NCBI RefSeq assembly: GCF_002001125.1 | Contig: NZ_MUNV01000006.1 | Location: 1-64,000 of the forward strand | Length of the DNA: 64,000 bases | Origin: Rhodanobacter sp. B04 | Lineage (GTDB): Bacteria; Pseudomonadota; Gammaproteobacteria; Xanthomonadales; Rhodanobacteraceae | Reading direction: 5' to 3' | In this document: piece by piece, positions 1,965 to 23,467 of the stretch | How the letters are laid out: every line of letters begins with the position of its first letter | Position numbering within the stretch: the first letter of the stretch is position 1 | Made by a program: the position numbers and the translations under genes | Notes under the pieces: model-generated | The model's database searches: none | Told to the model about the DNA's origin: nothing | Seen by the model: only the letters and a program-made list of their open reading frames with translations

Positions 1965-2678
1965 TCACGGGCACCAGTACACCGCCACCGGCACGCGTGG
2001 CTGGGTCAGCACCGCGCGTACCGGATAATCCTTTGCGGCATCCAGGCCCAGCCGCACATCGGCGAGCAGTTCGCGCTTGTGCTCGCCCGTCACCAGCAGG
2101 TACAGCGCGTGGGTATCGAGCAGGGTCGGCAGGCTGAGCGTGATGCGCGGCTCGCCGGCGCCCGGCGCATGCATCGGCAGCACGCGGGCATGGCCGTCGA
2201 GGTCCAGTGCCGCGGCGAGATGGTCGCCACCGGGAAAGAACGAGGCGGTGTGGCCGTCGTCGCCCATGCCCAGCACCACGGCGTCGAACGGCAACGGCAG
2301 TGCGGCGATGCGTGCGGCGGCCACGGCCAAGCCTTCTTCCGGCGTGGCCGCGCCGGTGTAGAGCGGCACGAACGTGGCGGCTGCGGCGTGGTGCTGCAAA
2401 AGCAGCGATTTCACCAGCCGCGCATTCGAGCGTTCGTCGCTGTCCGCCACCCAGCGCTCGTCGACCAGGGTGACTTGCACGTGCTGCCAGTCCAGCGCCT
2501 CGCGCGACAGTCGTGCGAAGAAATCCTTCGGCGTGCTGCCGCCGGAGACGGCCAGCGTGGCGTGGCCGCGTTCGGCCAGTGCATGGCGCAGGCGTTCGGC
2601 GATCCGCTCGGCCAGCGCCACGGCTTGCGCGTTGCCGTCGGTGAAGCTGTGCGTGGTGACGTTCAGATGGGTAGTCAT
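1965..2678 (-). CDS. pgl: 6-phosphogluconolactonase
   Basis: Hydrolyses 6-phosphogluconolactone to 6-phosphogluconate, between Zwf and Edd. 237 aa from ATG 2678 (protein begins MTTHLNVTTHSF); the reading frame is open a further 26 codons upstream, but that extension has no family character and the shorter form matches normal Pgl length. Family signatures include LAVSGGSTPKDFF near residues 45-57 and VLGMGDDGHTASFFPG in the middle, the phosphosugar-binding and catalytic segments of the NagB/Pgl fold. It lies 119 bp after zwf and 83 bp before edd, in what is probably one transcript. Confidence 0.94.
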   Translation of the reverse strand: MTTHLNVTTHSFTDGNAQAVALAERIAERLRHALAERGHATLAVSGGSTPKDFFARLSREALDWQHVQVTLVDERWVADSDERSNARLVKSLLLQHHAAAATFVPLYTGAATPEEGLAVAAARIAALPLPFDAVVLGMGDDGHTASFFPGGDHLAAALDLDGHARVLPMHAPGAGEPRITLSLPTLLDTHALYLLVTGEHKRELLADVRLGLDAAKDYPVRAVLTQPRVPVAVYWCP

Positions 2679-2797
2679 GGAAGGATGGTGGCGCGCCCGC
2701 TGATCAGTGGATGCCGGCGCACTTCGCTGGGATAGGGGAGGCAAAGTTTGCAGCACGCGTCGGCATGGTCGGGTGAAGCGACAGTAAAGATCGTGGG

Positions 2798-4261
2798 TTA
2801 TTCACTGTCTTCATTCCAGGTGCGGCCGTCGCGCTCGATCAACGCCACCGCCGCGCTGGGTCCCCAGCTGCCGGCGGCGTACGGTCGCGGCGCCTCGCCA
2901 CTGGCCGACCAGGCGGCGAGGATCGGGTCGGCCCAGCGCCATGCCGCTTCCACTTCGTCGCGGCGCATGAACAAGGTGGGATTGCCGCGCACCACGTCGA
3001 GCAGCAGGCGCTCGTACGCATCCGGCTGCTGCACGCCGAAGGCCTCGGCGAAGCTCATGTCCAGCGGCACGTGGCGCAGGCGCAGCCCGCCGGGGCCGGG
3101 ATGCTTGATCGTCAGCCACAGCTTCACGCCTTCGTCCGGCTGCAGGCGCAGCACCAGCCGGTTCTGCTTCAGCGTGCCGGCATCGGCATTGAAGATCGAA
3201 TGCGGCACCGGCTTGAAGGTGACCACGATCTCCGAGACACGGCTCGGCAGTCGCTTGCCGGTGCGCAGGTAGAACGGCACGCCGGCCCAGCGCCAGTTGG
3301 CGATTTCCGCCTTCAGCGCGACGAAGGTTTCGGTATTGGACTTGGTGTTGCCCAGCTCGTCCGGATAGCCGGGCACGCTGGCGCCTTCGGCCACGCCGGC
3401 GCGGTACTGGCCGCGCACGGTGAGCTGGGCGGCGTTGCTGTCGTCGATCGGTTTCAGCGAGTGCAGCACCTTCAGCTTCTCGTCGCGCACGGCATCGGGT
3501 GCCAGCGATGACGGCGGCTCCATCGCCACCATGCACAGCAGCTGCAGCATGTGGTTCTGCACCATGTCGCGCAGCGCGCCGGCACGGTCGTAGTACGCGC
3601 CGCGATGGCCGACGCCAAGGGTTTCGCCGACGGTGATCTGCACGTGGTCGATGTGCCCGGCGTTCCACAGCGGCTCGAACAGGGCATTGCCGAAGCGCAA
3701 CACCAGGAGGTTTTGCACCGTCTCCTTGCCGAGATAGTGATCGATGCGGAAGGTCTGCGATTCGCTGAAGACCTTGCCGACCGCGTCGTTGATCTGGTTC
3801 GCGCTGGCGAGGTCGCGGCCGATCGGCTTTTCCAGCACCACGCGCGAGGCGCCCCGGTTGAGTCCGTAATGACCGAGTCGCGCACAGATGTCGACGAACA
3901 ATTCGGGTGAGGTCGACAGGTAGAACACGCGGATGTGGTCGGGCTGCGTGCCGATGAAGCCGGCGAAATCGTCCCAGCCATCGTCCTTGCGCGCGTCCAG
4001 CGGGCGATAGAACACCTGCTGCAGGAACACGTCGAGCTTTGCCGCGTCGCAGATGCTGACCAGTGCCTCGCGCAGCAGTGCACGATAACCGCTGTCGTCC
4101 AGCGCCTCGCGGGCGACGCCGACGATCCGGCTGCTGGGCGGGATCTGGCCGTCGAGGAAGCGATGGAACAGGGCCGGCAGCAGTTTGCGCACGGCGAGGT
4201 CGCCGGTGCCGCCGAAGATCACCAGGTCGAACGGTTCGACCGATTGGGAGGAAGCACTCAC
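2798..4261 (-). CDS. zwf: Glucose-6-phosphate 1-dehydrogenase
   Basis: Oxidises glucose-6-phosphate to 6-phosphogluconolactone with NAD(P)+, feeding the Entner-Doudoroff and pentose phosphate routes. 487 aa, full length. The N-terminal nucleotide motif GGTGDLA is at 17-23 and the catalytic signature RIDHYLGKE at 172-180. First gene of the zwf-pgl-edd operon; it is divergent from the GntR gene at 4478 and shares a 216-bp control region with it. No HexR-type palindrome was recognised there; instead TGGTA repeats are present (see 4339-4355). Confidence 0.97.
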   Translation of the reverse strand: MSASSQSVEPFDLVIFGGTGDLAVRKLLPALFHRFLDGQIPPSSRIVGVAREALDDSGYRALLREALVSICDAAKLDVFLQQVFYRPLDARKDDGWDDFAGFIGTQPDHIRVFYLSTSPELFVDICARLGHYGLNRGASRVVLEKPIGRDLASANQINDAVGKVFSESQTFRIDHYLGKETVQNLLVLRFGNALFEPLWNAGHIDHVQITVGETLGVGHRGAYYDRAGALRDMVQNHMLQLLCMVAMEPPSSLAPDAVRDEKLKVLHSLKPIDDSNAAQLTVRGQYRAGVAEGASVPGYPDELGNTKSNTETFVALKAEIANWRWAGVPFYLRTGKRLPSRVSEIVVTFKPVPHSIFNADAGTLKQNRLVLRLQPDEGVKLWLTIKHPGPGGLRLRHVPLDMSFAEAFGVQQPDAYERLLLDVVRGNPTLFMRRDEVEAAWRWADPILAAWSASGEAPRPYAAGSWGPSAAVALIERDGRTWNEDSE

Positions 4262-16813: not shown

Positions 16814-18097
16814 TCACGCCTCGGCCGGTCGTGCCGCACCGATGCTGCGCAGCGCCGGGCTGGTCATGCAGCCGAGCGCGATCGCGCTCAGCGTCAGTCC
16901 CGCACCGACGAACAGCGCCGGCAGCGAGATCACCTTCAGCAGGCTGCCGGCGATCGCCGCCGACAGCGGCCCGAGGCCCATGAAGGTGAACATCAGCACG
17001 CTCATCGTGCGGCCCATCATCTCCGGCGCCACCCGGCGCTGGATCCAGCTGACGATGGCGATCTGCGCGATGCCGCCCAGCATGCCGGTGGCGGCCAGCA
17101 GCGCGGCACCGCCCACGGTCGAGTGATCCAGCGCCAGCGTGGCCAGCACCAGTCCGACGAGGCTGTCGATGCCCAGCACCATCAGGCCCAGCCGGCCGCG
17201 TACCAGCTTGCTGGCGAAGCCGGACAGCGCGCTGCCCAGCAGCATGCCGACACCGTTCGCGGTCATCAGGATGCCCAGCGAGGCTGCGCCCAGATCCAGC
17301 CGGGTATCGGCCAGCACCGGCAGGCCGACCTGGATCGGGCCGCCCACGAACACCGACACCACCGCCGCATACAGGATGAAGGCGCGCAACGGCAGGTCGG
17401 CCCAGATGGTGCGGATGCCGCTGGCGACATTGCCCAGCACGCTGCCGACCGGTGCCTTCGGGTGATGGTCGCTGTGGATGCGCACCAGCATCAGCGAGCC
17501 GAGCGAGAACAGGAAGCTCACCGCATCCACGCCGAAGGCCAGCCCGAGTCCGCTGGCGTCGGCGACGACCTGCCGCTGTCCCGCATGCGCACCGGTGCCG
17601 ATCACCAGGCCGGCCAGCACCGGGCCGACGATCATGCTCAGCTGGCGCATGCCCATGAACAGCGCATTGGCCGGCTGCAGCTGCGTCGGCTCCACCAACT
17701 GCGGCAGGATCGCCGAACCCGCCGGATAGGCAAACGCGGTGGACAGGCCGATGCCCAACGCGATCACGTAGATCATCCACATGTGGATGGCCCCGGCCAG
17801 CACCAGCAGCGCCAGCAGGCTGACCAGCAGGGCGTTGACCGCGCGTCCGGCAAGCAGCACCCGTCGCGGCGACATGCGATCCACCACCGCGCCGCCGATC
17901 AGCATGAACACCGCACGCGGCAGCGCGATCGCCGCCAGCACCAGGCCCAGCGCGGCCGGGTCGCCGGTGAGCTTCAGCACCAGCCACGGCAACGCCACCA
18001 GGGTGAACTGGTCGCCGATCGCCGAGATCGTGCTGCCGCCGAACAGCAGGGTGAAATTGTGGTTGGCGAACAGCGAGCTGCGCGGAGTGGGCTGCAT
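16814..18097 (-). CDS. MFS transporter (EntS/MFS_3-like exporter)
   Basis: Inner-membrane major facilitator with about 12 predicted helices, 427 aa. The start FANHNFTLLFGGSTISAIGD and the loop motif GGAVVDRMSPRRVLLAGR (about 68-85, MFS motif A) fit the MFS_3 group that includes enterobactin and macrolide exporters. Substrate is not predictable. It is transcribed towards the RND genes and away from the cassette array; the 243 bp between its start and the VOC gene hold no recognisable gene. Confidence 0.82.
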   Translation of the reverse strand: MQPTPRSSLFANHNFTLLFGGSTISAIGDQFTLVALPWLVLKLTGDPAALGLVLAAIALPRAVFMLIGGAVVDRMSPRRVLLAGRAVNALLVSLLALLVLAGAIHMWMIYVIALGIGLSTAFAYPAGSAILPQLVEPTQLQPANALFMGMRQLSMIVGPVLAGLVIGTGAHAGQRQVVADASGLGLAFGVDAVSFLFSLGSLMLVRIHSDHHPKAPVGSVLGNVASGIRTIWADLPLRAFILYAAVVSVFVGGPIQVGLPVLADTRLDLGAASLGILMTANGVGMLLGSALSGFASKLVRGRLGLMVLGIDSLVGLVLATLALDHSTVGGAALLAATGMLGGIAQIAIVSWIQRRVAPEMMGRTMSVLMFTFMGLGPLSAAIAGSLLKVISLPALFVGAGLTLSAIALGCMTSPALRSIGAARPAEA

Positions 18098-18340
18098 CGG
18101 GAAGTCCTGGGGCGCCGCTGCTTATCGGCGCTGTCGTGGAGGGACGTACTTGGAAACGGCGTTGCATGGTAGCTGGGCGAAGCGGTCAGCGACCACCGCG
18201 GGACGACCTTGGCCATGCATGAACGCATGCGACGAGGCTTTGACAACAAACGAGGATGGCGCGAGGACTGATGAAGGCCTGAAAGCCCAAGACAAGGGCA
18301 TCAAGCGCGTGGCGTTGACGGGAAGTCTGTTGCGGCGTTT

Positions 18341-18730
18341 TCAGGCCGCAGGGAGCGCACTGATCATCACGTAGTACCCGTCGGGATCGCGCAAGGCGAA
18401 TTCTTCGGTGCCCGTGCTTGGATTCAGGTGAGGCTCCTCTTCCAGCGCTGAAGCCAGAGCACGTGCCCGCGGCAGCGCCGCGGCAAAATCATCGACGCGG
18501 AAGAACAGAAGCAGTCCGTTTCCGGGCGGCGAGCGGTCAGGGCTGGTCAAGGGTGGGTGCCCGTGGGCCCCCCACTGGTGCAGGCAAAGCAGGACCGTCC
18601 CATCCGTGTCGAGGATTTGCCCGAAGTAGTCGTGGGCGGGACGTGTTGCCGGTTGGCCAAACAGCGACTGATACCACGCGAAGCTGCGCGCAACGTCGGC
18701 GACTCCGATGATTGTCCATGTGCGTTTCAT
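18341..18730 (-). CDS. VOC-family (glyoxalase/bleomycin-resistance fold) protein
   Basis: 129-aa vicinal-oxygen-chelate protein. It starts with the typical beta-alpha unit MKRTWTIIGVADVARSFAWY and ends with EEFALRDPDGYYVMIS, the metal-side strand of the second half. Members of this fold bind or modify small electrophiles and antibiotics; the ligand cannot be told. ATG 18730 lies 15 bp after the attC at 18745-18801, so it is in cassette position, but no attC follows its own 3' end. Such VOC genes are frequent in integron cassettes. Confidence 0.85.
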   Translation of the reverse strand: MKRTWTIIGVADVARSFAWYQSLFGQPATRPAHDYFGQILDTDGTVLLCLHQWGAHGHPPLTSPDRSPPGNGLLLFFRVDDFAAALPRARALASALEEEPHLNPSTGTEEFALRDPDGYYVMISALPAA

Positions 18731-18744
18731 TGCCTGTTCCTGCG

Positions 18745-18801
18745 GCCTAATGCTGGAGTTAAGCTGCGCCGGAGGCGTCCGCCTTGAACGAATTGTTACG
18801 C
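18745..18801 (-). repeat. attC site of the lipoprotein cassette
   Basis: On the minus strand the site opens GCGTAACAATTCGTTCAAGG and closes GCTTAACTCCAGCATTAGGC, with a central GGACGCC/GGCGc stem. R-box variants are GCGTAAC and ATTAGGC instead of the GTTAGGC consensus. The lipoprotein stop codon (18802-18804) touches it. Confidence 0.85.
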
Positions 18802-19299
18802 TTAGCCGGTTTCTGCATTAAAGCAAGAAGGCTTGACTTGATGAAGGTTGGGTACGGCTTTTGGATCACCATTCTCGTGCGTGATCAAGACCCCGCAGAC
18901 TAGCCCGGATTTGCGAAAACTCACCAGATAGTGCTCTTTCGCGGCTGGGATGAAGGACTCTGTGATGCTGCAGCTTTTTGTCTCCGTAAACCCTGGTGCG
19001 CCTGACTGATAGATATAACTGACAACAGCGGTACGTCCAGCCGGCATCAATCTAGCAACTCCGTCATGAGGATCCCCCTTACCCTGAATTGCCTTAGTCG
19101 TGAAGGTGGCTAAGCGGGTTCCGGAATCACTTGGCGCGCAGCCATCGTTCTTGAAGCTTTGAACAAGAATCCAGTCCCCGTGATCTATCCCACTTGCGGA
19201 GAACGTGACAGTTGCCACCGGTCCGGTCGTTGGTTCTACGTAGTGCGAGGCGCAGCCGGTAAGAAAAGCGGCGACCGCAAGAAGTAACATTCCTTTCAT
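18802..19299 (-). CDS. Cassette-encoded lipoprotein of unknown function
   Basis: 165 aa with a lipoprotein signal peptide (MKGMLLLAVAAFLTGCASH; lipobox LTGC, C16), so an envelope lipoprotein is predicted. The mature part has alternating beta-strand-like stretches and four further cysteines (NDGCAPS, TKSCSIT, GLVCGVL, KPSCFNA), which might pair as two disulfides. No family recognised. A GGGGGC precedes the ATG at 19299. The stop is directly adjacent to the attC at 18745-18801. Confidence 0.75.
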   Translation of the reverse strand: MKGMLLLAVAAFLTGCASHYVEPTTGPVATVTFSASGIDHGDWILVQSFKNDGCAPSDSGTRLATFTTKAIQGKGDPHDGVARLMPAGRTAVVSYIYQSGAPGFTETKSCSITESFIPAAKEHYLVSFRKSGLVCGVLITHENGDPKAVPNLHQVKPSCFNAETG

Positions 19300-19321
19300 G
19301 TTGCCCCCGACGCTTGATGGA

Positions 19322-19379
19322 ACCTAACGCTGGAGTTAAGCGGCGGCGGAGCCGTCCGCCTTGAACGACTGGTTAGGGC
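19322..19379 (-). repeat. attC site of the membrane-protein cassette
   Basis: Near-perfect Xanthomonas-type attC: minus strand starts CCCTAACCAGTCGTTCAAGG and ends GCTTAACTCCAGCGTTAGG, with a GC-rich central stem. The 3' end of the membrane-protein gene runs into it: its stop codon (19336-19338) lies inside the site. Confidence 0.9.
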
Positions 19380-19812
19380 GGCTGCCCCGAAAGAACGAGC
19401 CAGTTTTTGCACTAAGGAGCGCCCACGCGTTGATAGCAATTTCTAAGGTATTGCGTATGACATTAGCCCAGAGCTTCGGTGCAGCCTCGGCCGGCAGTGA
19501 TGCTCCGGATGAAACGAGAAGAGCCAAGCTTTGAAAGCCAAGAATGCCAAAAAATATTAACGCGGCAGCCAACATGAGCCAACGAGCGAATTGAAGGCGG
19601 AGCAATGCAAGTACAGAAGCGACGATGAGGAGGCCGGCGGTGCCAAGGGCAAGCAACGTTGTTGAGAGTCCTGGCCTCATGCTCTCGGGAATATTTGGGT
19701 TCGAGCTGAGCAGAAGAAACGCAACAGCTGCAACGCTGATGGCCGCAACGAGAATATTCATGATTGCCGCAACCCAAAGTCTTTTAGGACGCGGAAGTTC
19801 CGTGACAGTCAT
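19336..19812 (-). CDS. Cassette-encoded four-helix membrane protein, unknown
   Basis: 158 aa from ATG 19812 (MTVTELPRPKRLWVAAIMN). Four hydrophobic segments at about 13-36, 48-68, 72-94 and 112-130 predict a small integral membrane protein. The C-terminal tail, RPNQSFKADGSAAA, is translated from the attC itself, a trait seen in many cassette genes of Xanthomonadales. An in-frame extension to 19902 would cross the neighbouring attC and is not used. No family recognised. Confidence 0.72.
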   Translation of the reverse strand: MTVTELPRPKRLWVAAIMNILVAAISVAAVAFLLLSSNPNIPESMRPGLSTTLLALGTAGLLIVASVLALLRLQFARWLMLAAALIFFGILGFQSLALLVSSGASLPAEAAPKLWANVIRNTLEIAINAWALLSAKTGSFFRGSRPNQSFKADGSAAA

Positions 19813-19822
19813 TGTCTGATGA

Positions 19823-19880
19823 GCCCTAACGCTGGAGTTAAGCGGCGGCGAAGCCGTCCGCCTTGAACGATCAGTTAGCT
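19823..19880 (-). repeat. attC site of the TonB-like cassette
   Basis: Minus strand starts AGCTAACTGATCGTTCAAGG and ends GCTTAACTCCAGCGTTAGGG. It differs from the site at 19322-19379 at only a few bases. The stop codon of the TonB-like gene (19871-19873) overlaps its R'' end. Confidence 0.9.
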
Positions 19881-20302
19881 GGGAACTGCCACGTTCGACC
19901 ATAGCACCACGATACGTTGGTTGTTACGGCGTTTTTTTGAGGTTTGAACTGCCACAGCTGAAACGCAGCAGACAACGGAGCTACTAGAGATTTTGGCAAA
20001 GGCGTAAGTGCCGTGGCTACTGCAATGGAGCCTTGGCGGTCGATGATAAGTTCGAAAATGACCATTCTTGGAAGGTCATTTGATGCACGGCTCGACAGGA
20101 CTGGCTGAATGACGCGAGTAAGAATTGCGGTGGACTTGCTGGGGGCCTGGTTCCAGTGCGGACGCCAGTAAACAGACGTCAAACCGTGTGCGTCTCCTAC
20201 TTCAGTTGGAGACAGCTCCTTTTCGTCTGGGCAGAGCGGCGCACTCGTTGCCCCCGAGGTAGCCAACGCTGAAGAGATAAGTAGGCCTGCCAATATGCTC
20301 AT
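19871..20302 (-). CDS. Cassette-encoded exported protein with TonB C-terminal-like domain
   Basis: 143 aa. A signal peptide is likely (MSILAGLLISSALATSGATS). The segment from about 60 to 135 (PRMVIFELIIDRQGSIAVAT ... AFQLWQFKPQ) follows the TonB C-terminal pattern: strand, turn with a Gly, and a W-x-F-x-P motif. It lacks the N-terminal membrane anchor and proline-rich linker of true TonB, so it is a free periplasmic domain. Upstream is only a degenerate attC-like element, so it would be the first cassette on this side. No Shine-Dalgarno sequence is visible at ATG 20302. Confidence 0.7.
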   Translation of the reverse strand: MSILAGLLISSALATSGATSAPLCPDEKELSPTEVGDAHGLTSVYWRPHWNQAPSKSTAILTRVIQPVLSSRASNDLPRMVIFELIIDRQGSIAVATALTPLPKSLVAPLSAAFQLWQFKPQKNAVTTNVSWCYGRTWQFPAN

Positions 20303-20306
20303 AGAA

Positions 20307-20355
20307 GCTAACGCTTATTAGACCCCGCATCGGGGCATGTGCACGGATGTTGGGC
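20307..20355 (-). repeat. Degenerate attC-like or attI-side element
   Basis: Minus strand begins GCCCAACATCCGTGCAC (R''-like) and ends TAATAAGCGTTAGC (R'-like), with CCCCGATGCGGGG as an inner hairpin. It is shorter (49 bp) and less conserved than the other three sites. The rest of the 271-bp space up to the M16 gene (20356-20573) shows no gene; no integrase remnant was recognised. Confidence 0.45.
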
Positions 20356-20573
20356 TGCCCTGCAATAAGCCGTCAAGCGGGAAGTCGATGCGTGCGACAA
20401 GGGGTTGTGAGTGATGCGCCGAAGATTGCCGAGTTGCATGTCGCACGGATCGAGGCGCCAGGTCTTATCTGCCCGAAACAGCAATACGCACCCGTCCAAC
20501 TGGGCCAGAAGTCATGGGTGCGCTGGCGGGTCGGCTTGCTATGGTTGACCTTTCACCTGAAGGGAAGAAGGGG

Positions 20574-21965
20574 ATGACCATGCGTCTGCGTCCGGCCGCC
20601 TTGCTGGCCTCGATCACCTTGTTCACGGCGGCGCTGGCGCCGCCGCTGGCTGCCGCCGAACTGGAGATACCGCCGATCCAGTACCACCAGCGTACCTTGC
20701 CGAACGGCCTGCAGGTGATCAGCGTTGAGGATCACGCCAGCCCGAACGTGGCGGTGCAGATGTGGTACCACGTCGGCTCGAAGGACGATCCGCAGGGGCG
20801 CTCCGGCTTCGCGCATCTGTTCGAACACCTGATGTTCAAGAGCACGAAGCACATGCATGCCGAACAGATGGACCGGCTCACCGAGGATGTCGGTGGCGAG
20901 AACAACGCGTCCACCGGTGATGACGTCACCAACTACTTCGAGGTGGTGCCGAGCAATTATCTGCAGACCCTGCTGTGGGCCGAGGCCGAGCGGCTGTCCA
21001 ATCTCAACGTGGACGAACCGAACTTCAAATCCGAGCGCGCGGTGGTGGAGGAGGAATACCGCCAGAGCGTGCTGGCCAACCCGTACGGCAAGCTGTTCAA
21101 CGCGATCGACCCGTACTCGTACACGGTGCACCCGTACAAGCGCCCGACCATCGGCAGCATCGAGGAGCTGGAGGCGGCCTCGCTGCAGAACGTGATTGAT
21201 TTCCACGGCACCTTCTATCGGCCGGACAACGCGACCCTGATCGTCAGTGGCGATTTCGATCCGAAGCAACTCGATGCCTGGGTCGACGCGTATTTCGGTG
21301 GCATCGCGAAGCCGGCCACGCCGGTGCCGCAGGTCACCGTACAGGAGCCGGCGCGCAAGAAGAACCAGCATTACACCGTCACCAGCGAGACCGCGCCGCT
21401 GCCCGCGGTGGCGATGACCTGGCTGATTCCGCCGGCATCCGACAGCACGGACCTGATTCCGCTGCAGATTGCCGCCGCGCTGCTGTCGCAGGGCGATTCG
21501 TCGCGGCTGTACCAGTCATTGGTGTATCGCCATCAGGTTGCCCAGCAGGTGGGTGCCGATGCGGATGGCCGGGTCGGGCCGGGCTTGTTCACCGCATACG
21601 CCATTCTCGCCAGCGGGCATTGGCCGGCCGAGGCGACCAAGCTGCTGAACGAGGAAATCGTCTGGCTGGCGACCCAGCCGATTCCTGCCGCCGAACTCGA
21701 CAAGGTGAAGACGCAGCTGCTGACCCGCGAGTTGCTGCAGCGACAGACCGCGCAAGGCGTCGCGTTCGCGCTGGGTCAGGCCAGCCTGATCAATGGCGGC
21801 GTCGAGCACGTCAACACCGATCTGGCCGCGCTGCAGAAAGTCACCGAGGCCGACGTGCATCGCGTGCTGCAGAAGTACGTCACCGGCGCGCACAGCGTCA
21901 CCATCGATTACCTGCCGCAGGCCGCCACGGCCGCGCCGGCCACCGGCAAGGGAGCAGCGCAATGA
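20574..21965 (+). CDS. M16 zinc peptidase (catalytic), periplasmic
   Basis: Pitrilysin/insulinase-family metallopeptidase, 463 aa. Start ATG 20574 follows GAAGAAGGGG; the product has a signal peptide ending near AAPLAAA. The inverted zinc motif HLFEH (in SGFAHLFEHLMFKS) and the downstream glutamate in ERAVVEEEYRQ are intact, so this subunit should be active. The next gene, overlapping by 4 bp, encodes a second M16 protein without that motif; the two probably form the usual active/inactive heterodimer acting on peptides in the periplasm. Confidence 0.92.
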   Translation: MTMRLRPAALLASITLFTAALAPPLAAAELEIPPIQYHQRTLPNGLQVISVEDHASPNVAVQMWYHVGSKDDPQGRSGFAHLFEHLMFKSTKHMHAEQMDRLTEDVGGENNASTGDDVTNYFEVVPSNYLQTLLWAEAERLSNLNVDEPNFKSERAVVEEEYRQSVLANPYGKLFNAIDPYSYTVHPYKRPTIGSIEELEAASLQNVIDFHGTFYRPDNATLIVSGDFDPKQLDAWVDAYFGGIAKPATPVPQVTVQEPARKKNQHYTVTSETAPLPAVAMTWLIPPASDSTDLIPLQIAAALLSQGDSSRLYQSLVYRHQVAQQVGADADGRVGPGLFTAYAILASGHWPAEATKLLNEEIVWLATQPIPAAELDKVKTQLLTRELLQRQTAQGVAFALGQASLINGGVEHVNTDLAALQKVTEADVHRVLQKYVTGAHSVTIDYLPQAATAAPATGKGAAQ

Positions 21966-23467
21966 ACCGTCCGATGAAGATGTTGCGTCTGGCTGCCCTG
22001 ACGGTGGCCCTGTTCGCCGCCACCCATGCGCTGGCGACTTCGCCGATCGCACCGGCTTTCCCGACCGAGCCGCCGGCACCCGGCCCGGCTCCCACGCTGA
22101 CCGTGCCCACGCCGTCCGTGCAGGTTCTGGCGAACGGCCTGCAGGTCGTCAGTGTACGCCGCGCCGGCCTGCCGCTGGTCACCGCGCAGCTGGTGTTGCG
22201 CAGTGGCGGCGAGATGGATCCACCGCAGTTGGCCGGCCTGGCCGACCTCACCGCGAACCTGCTGAGCAAGGGCGCCGCCGGCAAGAGCGCACCGCAGATC
22301 GCCGGCGCCGCCGAGGCACTGGGTGGTTCGCTGGCCGCCGCGGCGGGGTGGGATGAAAGCGGGGTCGGCATCACGGTGACCACGCCGAAACTGCCGCAGG
22401 CGCTGGGCCTGCTGGCCGAGGTGGTACGTCAGCCGGATTTCAGCGCGGACGAACTCAAACGCGCGCAGGCGCAGGCGATCGACGATCTGCATCTGTCGCT
22501 GAGCCGGCCGACCGCGCTGGCTTCGCTCGCCGCCGGTCGCGGCGTGTTCGGCGAGGGTGCCTACGGACATTCGCGCAGCGGCACGCCGGCCTCGCTCGCG
22601 CGGATCAGCCGTGCCGACGTGCAGCAGCTGCATGACCGGCTGTACCGGCCGGACAACGCGATCCTGGTGCTCACCGGCGACATTACCCCGGCGCAGGCGC
22701 AGCAGCTGGCGCAGACCAGCTTCGGCGACTGGCAGAAGCCGGCCACGCCGCTGCCGGTGCGGCCGGCCGGCACCCGTGCCAGCCATGTGCCGGCGATCCT
22801 GCTGATCGATCAGCACGGCGCCGGTCAGGCCGGCGTGGTCGCCGCCCATGCCGCGCCGCCGCGCAACGACGCCGACTACTACGTCGGCACGGTGGCCAAC
22901 GCGGTACTGGGTGGTTCGTACTCGGCGCGTCTGAACGAGGAGATCCGCATCAAGCGCGGGCTGTCCTACGGCGCCAGCAGCCGGTTGCAGTCGCTCGGCG
23001 ATGCCGGCATGTGGCTGGCATCGGCGCAGACCAAGAACCCGTCGGCGCCGCAGGTGGTGGATCTGATGCTGGGCGAGTTCAACCGCCTCGGCACGACCAG
23101 GGTCGATGTGCAGGAACTGGCCGCGCGCAAGGCGACCCTGATCGGCAGCTACGGACGCAGCCTGGAGACCACGGCCGGACTGGCCGGGCAGGTCGGCGAC
23201 CTGGCGGTCTATGGCGTGAAGCTGGACGAGATCGGCAAGTACATCGCGCAGGTGCAGGCCGTCACGCCGAAGCAGATCGAGGCGTACGCGCACAAGCATC
23301 TGGATGCCGCCGGCAGCAAGGTGGTGGTGGTCGGCGACGCGGCGCAGTTCGGCGACGCGATCCGCAAGGCGCATCCGAAGGCGGTGTTGTTGTCATCGAC
23401 CGCGCTCGACCTGGACAGCCCCAGCCTGCAGCCGGGGGCTGCGCCGGCGGCGACCGGCAAGCACTAG
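21962..23467 (+). CDS. M16-family peptidase-like protein, non-catalytic partner
   Basis: 501 aa with signal peptide (MNRPMKMLRLAALTVALFAA...HALA) and a proline-rich stretch before the M16 domain. At the place of the HxxEH motif it reads LADLTANLLSKG, so zinc ligands are missing. The C-terminal M16 region is kept, including GGSYSARLNEEIRIKRGLSY, the R/Y motif that shapes the substrate cleft. ATGA overlap with the upstream catalytic gene indicates translational coupling and joint assembly. Confidence 0.9.
   Translation: MNRPMKMLRLAALTVALFAATHALATSPIAPAFPTEPPAPGPAPTLTVPTPSVQVLANGLQVVSVRRAGLPLVTAQLVLRSGGEMDPPQLAGLADLTANLLSKGAAGKSAPQIAGAAEALGGSLAAAAGWDESGVGITVTTPKLPQALGLLAEVVRQPDFSADELKRAQAQAIDDLHLSLSRPTALASLAAGRGVFGEGAYGHSRSGTPASLARISRADVQQLHDRLYRPDNAILVLTGDITPAQAQQLAQTSFGDWQKPATPLPVRPAGTRASHVPAILLIDQHGAGQAGVVAAHAAPPRNDADYYVGTVANAVLGGSYSARLNEEIRIKRGLSYGASSRLQSLGDAGMWLASAQTKNPSAPQVVDLMLGEFNRLGTTRVDVQELAARKATLIGSYGRSLETTAGLAGQVGDLAVYGVKLDEIGKYIAQVQAVTPKQIEAYAHKHLDAAGSKVVVVGDAAQFGDAIRKAHPKAVLLSSTALDLDSPSLQPGAAPAATGKH

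Follow-up and report, generated by a model that had tools for sequence, protein, structure and literature searches.

An attI-headed integron cassette array without a neighbouring integrase gene in Rhodanobacter sp. B04

The 64-kb stretch of DNA from the soil bacterium Rhodanobacter sp. B04 analysed here (the window) harbors an integron cassette array that is headed by an attI site and has no integron integrase gene (intI) beside it. The array probably represents an integrase-less integron platform that has kept its attI, with cassettes inserted and removed by an integrase encoded elsewhere; from comparison of sequences, we put the probability of this reading at roughly 0.7. Matches to an attC model and the lack of an intI beside the array bear out the first-pass annotation of these genes as an integron cassette array that lacks an integrase.

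Layout of the array and its attI site

A covariance model of attC (R2) was built from 24 attC sites on other contigs of the same genome. In the window it matches exactly three sites (Table 1), and beyond these no match reaches E<=1. The first-pass annotation had listed four attC sites, each at the 3' end of a gene, and had named a lack of covariance-model hits as grounds for rejecting them. The model does give attC matches, and three of the four sites are attC. The fourth (20307-20355) has no R2 match, precedes the first gene on its 5' side, and folds on the + strand like its shuffles (z -0.22, 80/200 as good). It is an attI that had been read as a worn attC. Nor does R2 find an attC 3' to the VOC gene. 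The order from attI is TonB-like gene, attC, membrane-protein gene, attC, lipoprotein gene, damaged attC and VOC gene, and all four genes are carried on the minus strand, the shared orientation already described for them.

Identity to the middle attC is 81% and 89% for the outer two. Both proximal sites (attC 1 and attC 2) have the crossover G/TT, and their + strand folding is somewhat above that of shuffles, 10 of 200 shuffles equalling attC 2 and 17 of 200 equalling attC 1. The third site, between the lipoprotein and VOC genes, is probably damaged; the crossover G is lost, and its + strand folding (z +0.86) is poorer than that of most shuffles.

Table 1. Features of the array and its flanks, in window positions.
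Feature	Position	Strand	Basis or remark
MFS transporter (flank)	16814..18097	-	flanks the dock in G017 too; beside M16 in other relatives
VOC-family gene, 129 aa	18341..18730	-	PF00903, 39.3 bits against a cut-off of 20.6
attC 3, probably damaged	18745..18802	-	R2 E=8.4e-15; A replaces crossover G at 18751
Cassette 3	18751..19327	-	crossovers from R2 matches and crossover bases
Cassette 3 gene, 165-aa lipoprotein-like protein	18802..19299	-	ORF translation; LTGC near N terminus
attC 2	19322..19379	-	R2 E=1.3e-20; fold z -1.75
Cassette 2	19328..19829	-	crossovers from R2 matches and crossover bases
Cassette 2 gene, 158-aa hydrophobic membrane protein	19336..19812	-	translation; runs into its own attC
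attC 1	19824..19881	-	R2 E=5.1e-19; fold z -1.31
Cassette 1 (crossover to crossover)	19830..20311	-	crossovers from R1/R2 matches and crossover bases
Cassette 1 gene, 143-aa secreted-looking protein	19871..20302	-	weak TonB_C resemblance (Pfam E=0.1, under cut-off)
attI, type B, primary insertion site	20308..20377	-	R1 E=7.4e-15; crossover between 20312 (G) and 20311 (T)
Putative cassette promoter Pc within attI	-35 TTGACG 20376-20371; -10 CAACAT 20352-20347	-	conserved TTG and -10-like bases in the attI alignment only
Block homologous to attI-intI intergenic region of intact integrons	20378..20468	-	blastn, 91 bp past the R1 match; no intI coding trace
M16 peptidase (flank)	20574..21965	+	homologues in 41/41 genomes searched

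The attI model (R1) was built from 24 attI sites adjoining intI, the window, C26 and G017 sites being kept out of training. Its match in the window scores 48.7 bits, with a runner-up at only E=0.46, and the same site is recovered in a search of the whole genome (E=4.4e-13). The window attI is nearest to type B, with 59/74 alignment columns identical to that of locus L064. The junction with cassette 1 has the attI-type G/TT crossover, with TT at 20311-20310. A consensus promoter scan did not report the putative Pc among its promoters. At many intI-less attI loci, termed docks here, a block (GTTACACC.. or TTATCACC..) some 60-127 bp upstream of attI can still be recognised. A hairpin was also examined across attI sites, of which 81/92 were placeable in the pairing test. 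GGGGT is kept in 67 of the 81, and mean pairing is 4.11 of 5 against 3.98 when shuffled (0/1000 shuffles that high). Clearly compensatory changes are few, and therefore no structural claim is made for the hairpin.

The integron-integrase family model TIGR02249 matches nothing on the whole contig (C24) to which the window belongs, in line with the report of no IntI in the window, and tblastn with seven integron integrases finds no intI trace at E<=1e-3 between 16808 and 22877. Rfam gives no match at E<=1 within 17000-22000. With three attC sites, where at least two define a CALIN, and no integron integrase gene nearby, the array is a CALIN; an intI adjoining attI, the mark of a complete integron, is absent.

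No Pfam or NCBIfam family scores over its cut-off for the TonB-like, membrane and lipoprotein-like proteins. Among 45 genomes of the genus, the lipoprotein-like and TonB-like proteins each match their own genome only (1/45, E<=1e-4), so a fixed gene order in all relatives, the other outcome named as refuting the array, is not seen. The VOC gene is without an attC of its own 3' to it by R2 in the window. Its homologues occur in 14/45 genomes, own included; one sits at the LytTR dock described below in both G017 and G015, the G015 copy being flanked by attC on either side, and the homologue in G052 has its own attC. The window VOC gene was probably once a cassette and has since lost its attC. 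By eye, VOC homologues at L321, L322 and L323 (genomes G021, G053 and G008) stand behind sequence resembling the beginning (5') of intI, and they have some 3' flanking sequence in common with the window VOC gene; these surroundings are perhaps the remains of a decayed integron. For the function of the cargo, we propose nothing further than accessory secreted or membrane proteins.

Recurrence of intI-less docks with different cassettes

The gap between the MFS and M16 genes was read in 11 relatives. The nearest, the sister species G017 (M16 93% identical), has an attI in the same gap (R1 1.8e-11) and is likewise without intI. M16, spacer and attI align between the two, homology ends at 20310, the crossover, and the cassettes past it differ from those of the window. 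Farther on is a match of 1396 bp at 90%, presumably the MFS flank. In the other ten relatives R1 reports no attI in this gap, which spans about 250 bp in G009 and G019 and 0.8-1.3 kb in the remaining eight, where another gene lies inside, as judged by eye.

This recurrence bears on an alternative in which the array is a stranded relic; a complete integron would have been filled with intI in cis, then have lost intI, and the array would only have decayed since. The damaged attC 3 and the VOC gene without an attC agree with such a history, as do the decayed or empty state of certain docks elsewhere and the lower scores of intI-less attI sites without downstream attC. However, the G017 dock is equally intI-less and yet has a different first cassette, and two more loci have a common intI-less junction and differing cassettes, so that separate intI losses after cassette changes would be needed. 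We consider the stranded relic unlikely.

The two further loci were inspected by eye and, apart from them, only the window's own group was looked at. The first lies behind a response-regulator gene that we take to be of the LytTR type. This gene is found in 44/45 genomes; among 30 fetched loci an attI lies behind it at 11 (E<=5e-5), and at 8 of these its distance from the gene is 175-177 bp. The gene at the second locus is present in 39/45 genomes, and 8 of 30 fetched loci have an attI, which at 6 follows the gene at a distance of 133-137 bp. Flank and attI align among eight species at the LytTR locus and among six at the second, with unrelated sequence past the crossover. Behind the crossover, identity per 20 columns drops to 0.09-0.20 at the LytTR locus, where one of the eight (G055) stops at a contig edge behind the crossover, and 0.09-0.38 at the second. 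The attI of the LytTR locus is better conserved (0.88, 0.78) than the spacer before it (0.39-0.66), and the contrast is weaker at the second locus (0.54-0.76 vs 0.38-0.52). The crossover G/TT is kept in 5/8 at the LytTR locus (lost in G013, G002 and G015) and in 6/6 at the second. At both, the intI-less junction is common to species, and decayed (L260, L265, L292, L293) and empty versions were seen by eye. An intI-less junction common to species, together with differing first cassettes, implies either that an integrase acted after the loss of intI or that intI was lost many times.

Grouping by upstream flank covered 82 loci (80 from the survey below, the window and C26), and 51 of these intI-less attI loci belong to ten groups, each with 2-10 members. 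For the 54 loci where an attC was detected and the first cassette measured 100 bp or more, first cassettes were compared by blastn and blastp (E<=1e-3). None of the 54 resembles another, and the number of same-group pairs with a similar first cassette is 0/64. Because the G017 dock recurs with other cassettes and none of the 64 pairs is alike, cassette turnover in trans is favoured over a dead relic. Four locus pairs do have similar attI-proximal sequence (L176/L179, 838 bp at 95%; L120/L130; L129/L191; L171/L183), which weakens the case for service in trans; they stand outside the 64, each including at least one locus without a detected attC.

Differences between species might also have arisen without any integrase, by ordinary recombination between near-identical attC sites that deleted cassettes from a longer ancestral array. 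The attC sites within the genome are indeed highly alike, but the core common to attI and attC is short, which would make an exact change of first cassette at the attI crossover hard to achieve, and the lack of resemblance among the 54 first cassettes also speaks against it. We regard this explanation as highly improbable.

Integrases and attI sites across the genome and the genus

Looking for intI elsewhere, as advised at first pass, gives two integron integrases over the TIGR02249 cut-off on other contigs of the genome, at C4:39022-39963 (491 bits) and C22:473798-474736 (484 bits). Both intI are intact and each adjoins an attI and an array. The genome harbors other clusters as well. Those on C6 and C26 lack intI and are attI-headed (R1 E 9.9e-21 and 5.5e-9), and an intI-less cluster on C29 has a type-D attI at its head (72-73% identical to L075 and L074 over 145-149 bp). 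A weak R1 match at C24:432852 (1.5e-6) has no R2 attC behind it. The C30 array extends past the end of its contig. The contig ends of C4, C6 and C30 (L016, L018, L019, L020) fall inside cassette arrays, and a 127-bp inverted repeat is common to both ends of C30. In the C29 cluster (L022), a transposase-like reading frame at about 1885-2520 seems to split an attC, presumably an arrangement resembling IS1111-attC insertions. A 156-bp piece of this cluster recurs at 97% near a C30 end, and the translation of a cassette gene at about 2535-3073 looks by eye like a Coq7-type demethoxyubiquinone hydroxylase. On C25 (L023), a cassette-like gene has a single attC at about 3504-3560 with no R1 attI before it and a tRNA-like sequence not far away; it is a candidate for insertion at an off-target site (attG).

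Off-target insertion has to be weighed for the window too, where a distant IntI would have put the cassettes into a genomic site other than attI. The attG mechanism is known (PMC12444791), and the single attC of C25, without an R1 attI, lies in the same genome. The match of the window site to attI, however, extends over 70 bp, with another 91 bp upstream, and the site is therefore not an attG; this explanation is scarcely credible.

Separate arrays have stretches of sequence in common. The C4 and C22 arrays have 432 bp in common at 99.1% (L016 4939-5370, L017 8213-8644), apparently a whole cassette, and the C4 array and the integrase-less C6 array have 171 bp in common at 96.5%, both at contig ends. 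The intI array and an orphan array of G057 have 215 bp in common at 93.5%, two orphan arrays of G008 have 518 bp at 85%, and orphan docks of different species (G008 L172 and G020 L129) have 475 bp at 98%. That intI-linked and orphan arrays of one genome have stretches in common supports service in trans.

A TIGR02249 search of the 45 genomes gave a match at 1e-60 in 37, and in 36 the curated cut-off is exceeded. The attI sites read beside 31 intI loci belong to the related types A, B and C, plus others. At E<=1e-8, R1 finds 97 attI, 29 within 1.5 kb of an intI and 68 (in 29 genomes) not; at E<=1e-5 it finds 113, with 29 linked to intI and 84, in 33 genomes, not. Eight genomes of 1-6 contigs hold 15 intI-less attI (E<=1e-5), so contig breaks cannot explain all of them. 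From the 84 intI-less loci 80 were extracted, the window and C26 being handled apart and two left out, and 54/80 have full flanks, here meaning 3 kb or more of downstream and 2 kb or more of upstream sequence. In this subset attC lie downstream in the right strand at 41/54 loci (154 attC). The other 13/54 are without downstream attC, although one locus has attC elsewhere (4). By tblastn, a trace of intI is present at 9/54, in 7 of the 9 within residues 1-50, and these remnants are N-terminal pieces of varied length. We also considered that the attI block might itself be mobile, its left end being fixed near intI codon 11; this is less likely, since the graded intI remnants fit deletion of intI better.

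In a second genome collection, which overlaps the 45 genomes and is not independent of them, an exact attI pattern occurs in 59 stretches, 37 of them titled Rhodanobacter. A tblastn search within 1.6 kb shows intI at 21 of the 59 and an intI fragment at 8; at 24 it shows neither, and the remaining 6 lie too close to an end. Among the 24 without intI, 9 lie outside Rhodanobacter, including Dyella, Frateuria and Luteimonas.

Service in trans is further supported by attI scores, which are higher where attC are present and in genomes that bear intI. With kinship and assembly quality ignored, the median -log10 E is 18.2 with attC (n=41) and 7.7 without (n=13; p=4e-5), and, with the same factors ignored, scores are higher in genomes with intI (n=37) than in those without (n=8; p=0.008). 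The case is weakened by the 13 sites without downstream attC and by docks that are decayed or have lost the crossover G. It is also weakened by a mismatch of types, the window attI being of type B and the genome lacking a type-B IntI; compared with two type-B IntIs, the C22 IntI is 75-76% identical and the C4 IntI 71%. The choice between a distant integrase and a stranded array had been left open at first pass. The data favour service in trans, with a stranded relic conceivable at this one locus.

In the mechanism we propose for the window, an intI would once have stood at the locus and later been deleted. An integron integrase from C4 or C22 may now act in trans on the window attI. Circular cassettes would enter there, at the G/TT between 20312 and 20311, and would leave via the intact attC sites, and a promoter beside attI may express them. 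In a broader form of the proposal, one or two integrases would serve several fixed, vertically inherited intI-less docks, with the docks selected and the cassettes turning over and moving between docks and intI-linked arrays. Such a distributed integron seems to us slightly the better bet.

Relation to known integrons and implications

A CALIN is a cluster of attC without a nearby intI and is said to be mobilisable in trans (PMC12444791, PMC9668308). CALINs are common, and the origins proposed for them include off-target insertion, loss of a recognisable intI, and rearrangement (PMC8618304). CALINs as such are thus already known, and so are the ideas that they are mobilised in trans and arise through loss of intI (PMC12444791, PMC9892861, PMC9668308, PMC8618304). 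What appears new is the existence of CALINs that keep attI at loci common to species. No description of integrase-less attI docks conserved between species was found in the open-licence PMC literature.

The window array resembles several known systems. It shares with the CALIN its two or more attC and the absence of intI nearby, but the CALIN is defined by attC alone, whereas the window cluster is headed by an attI of a kind that recurs at shared loci with different cassettes. With the complete sedentary chromosomal integrons on C4 and C22 it shares attI, cassette order, orientation and attC family, but it lacks the intI that stands beside attI in those. The non-adjacent CALINs of Xanthomonas (PMC12444791) are also intI-less clusters at conserved chromosomal places, distant from the intI locus, and occur in the same bacterial order; the passages concerned mention no attI at these clusters. 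In the delta-attI cassettes of mobile integrons (PMC12901181), an attI also occurs outside its usual place and takes part in recombination. There, however, the attI is partial and belongs to a cassette, whereas the window attI is complete and stands at the head of a chromosomal array.

The subset of CALINs that are attI-headed and at shared loci points to loss of intI followed by continued use in trans. If this is correct, integrons should be annotated by attI in addition to intI and attC, and one integrase could feed several expression sites. The conserved positions of Xanthomonas CALINs (PMC12444791) may then have a simple explanation. If the distributed integron also holds, many CALINs of the Lysobacterales would be active outlying docks and not debris.
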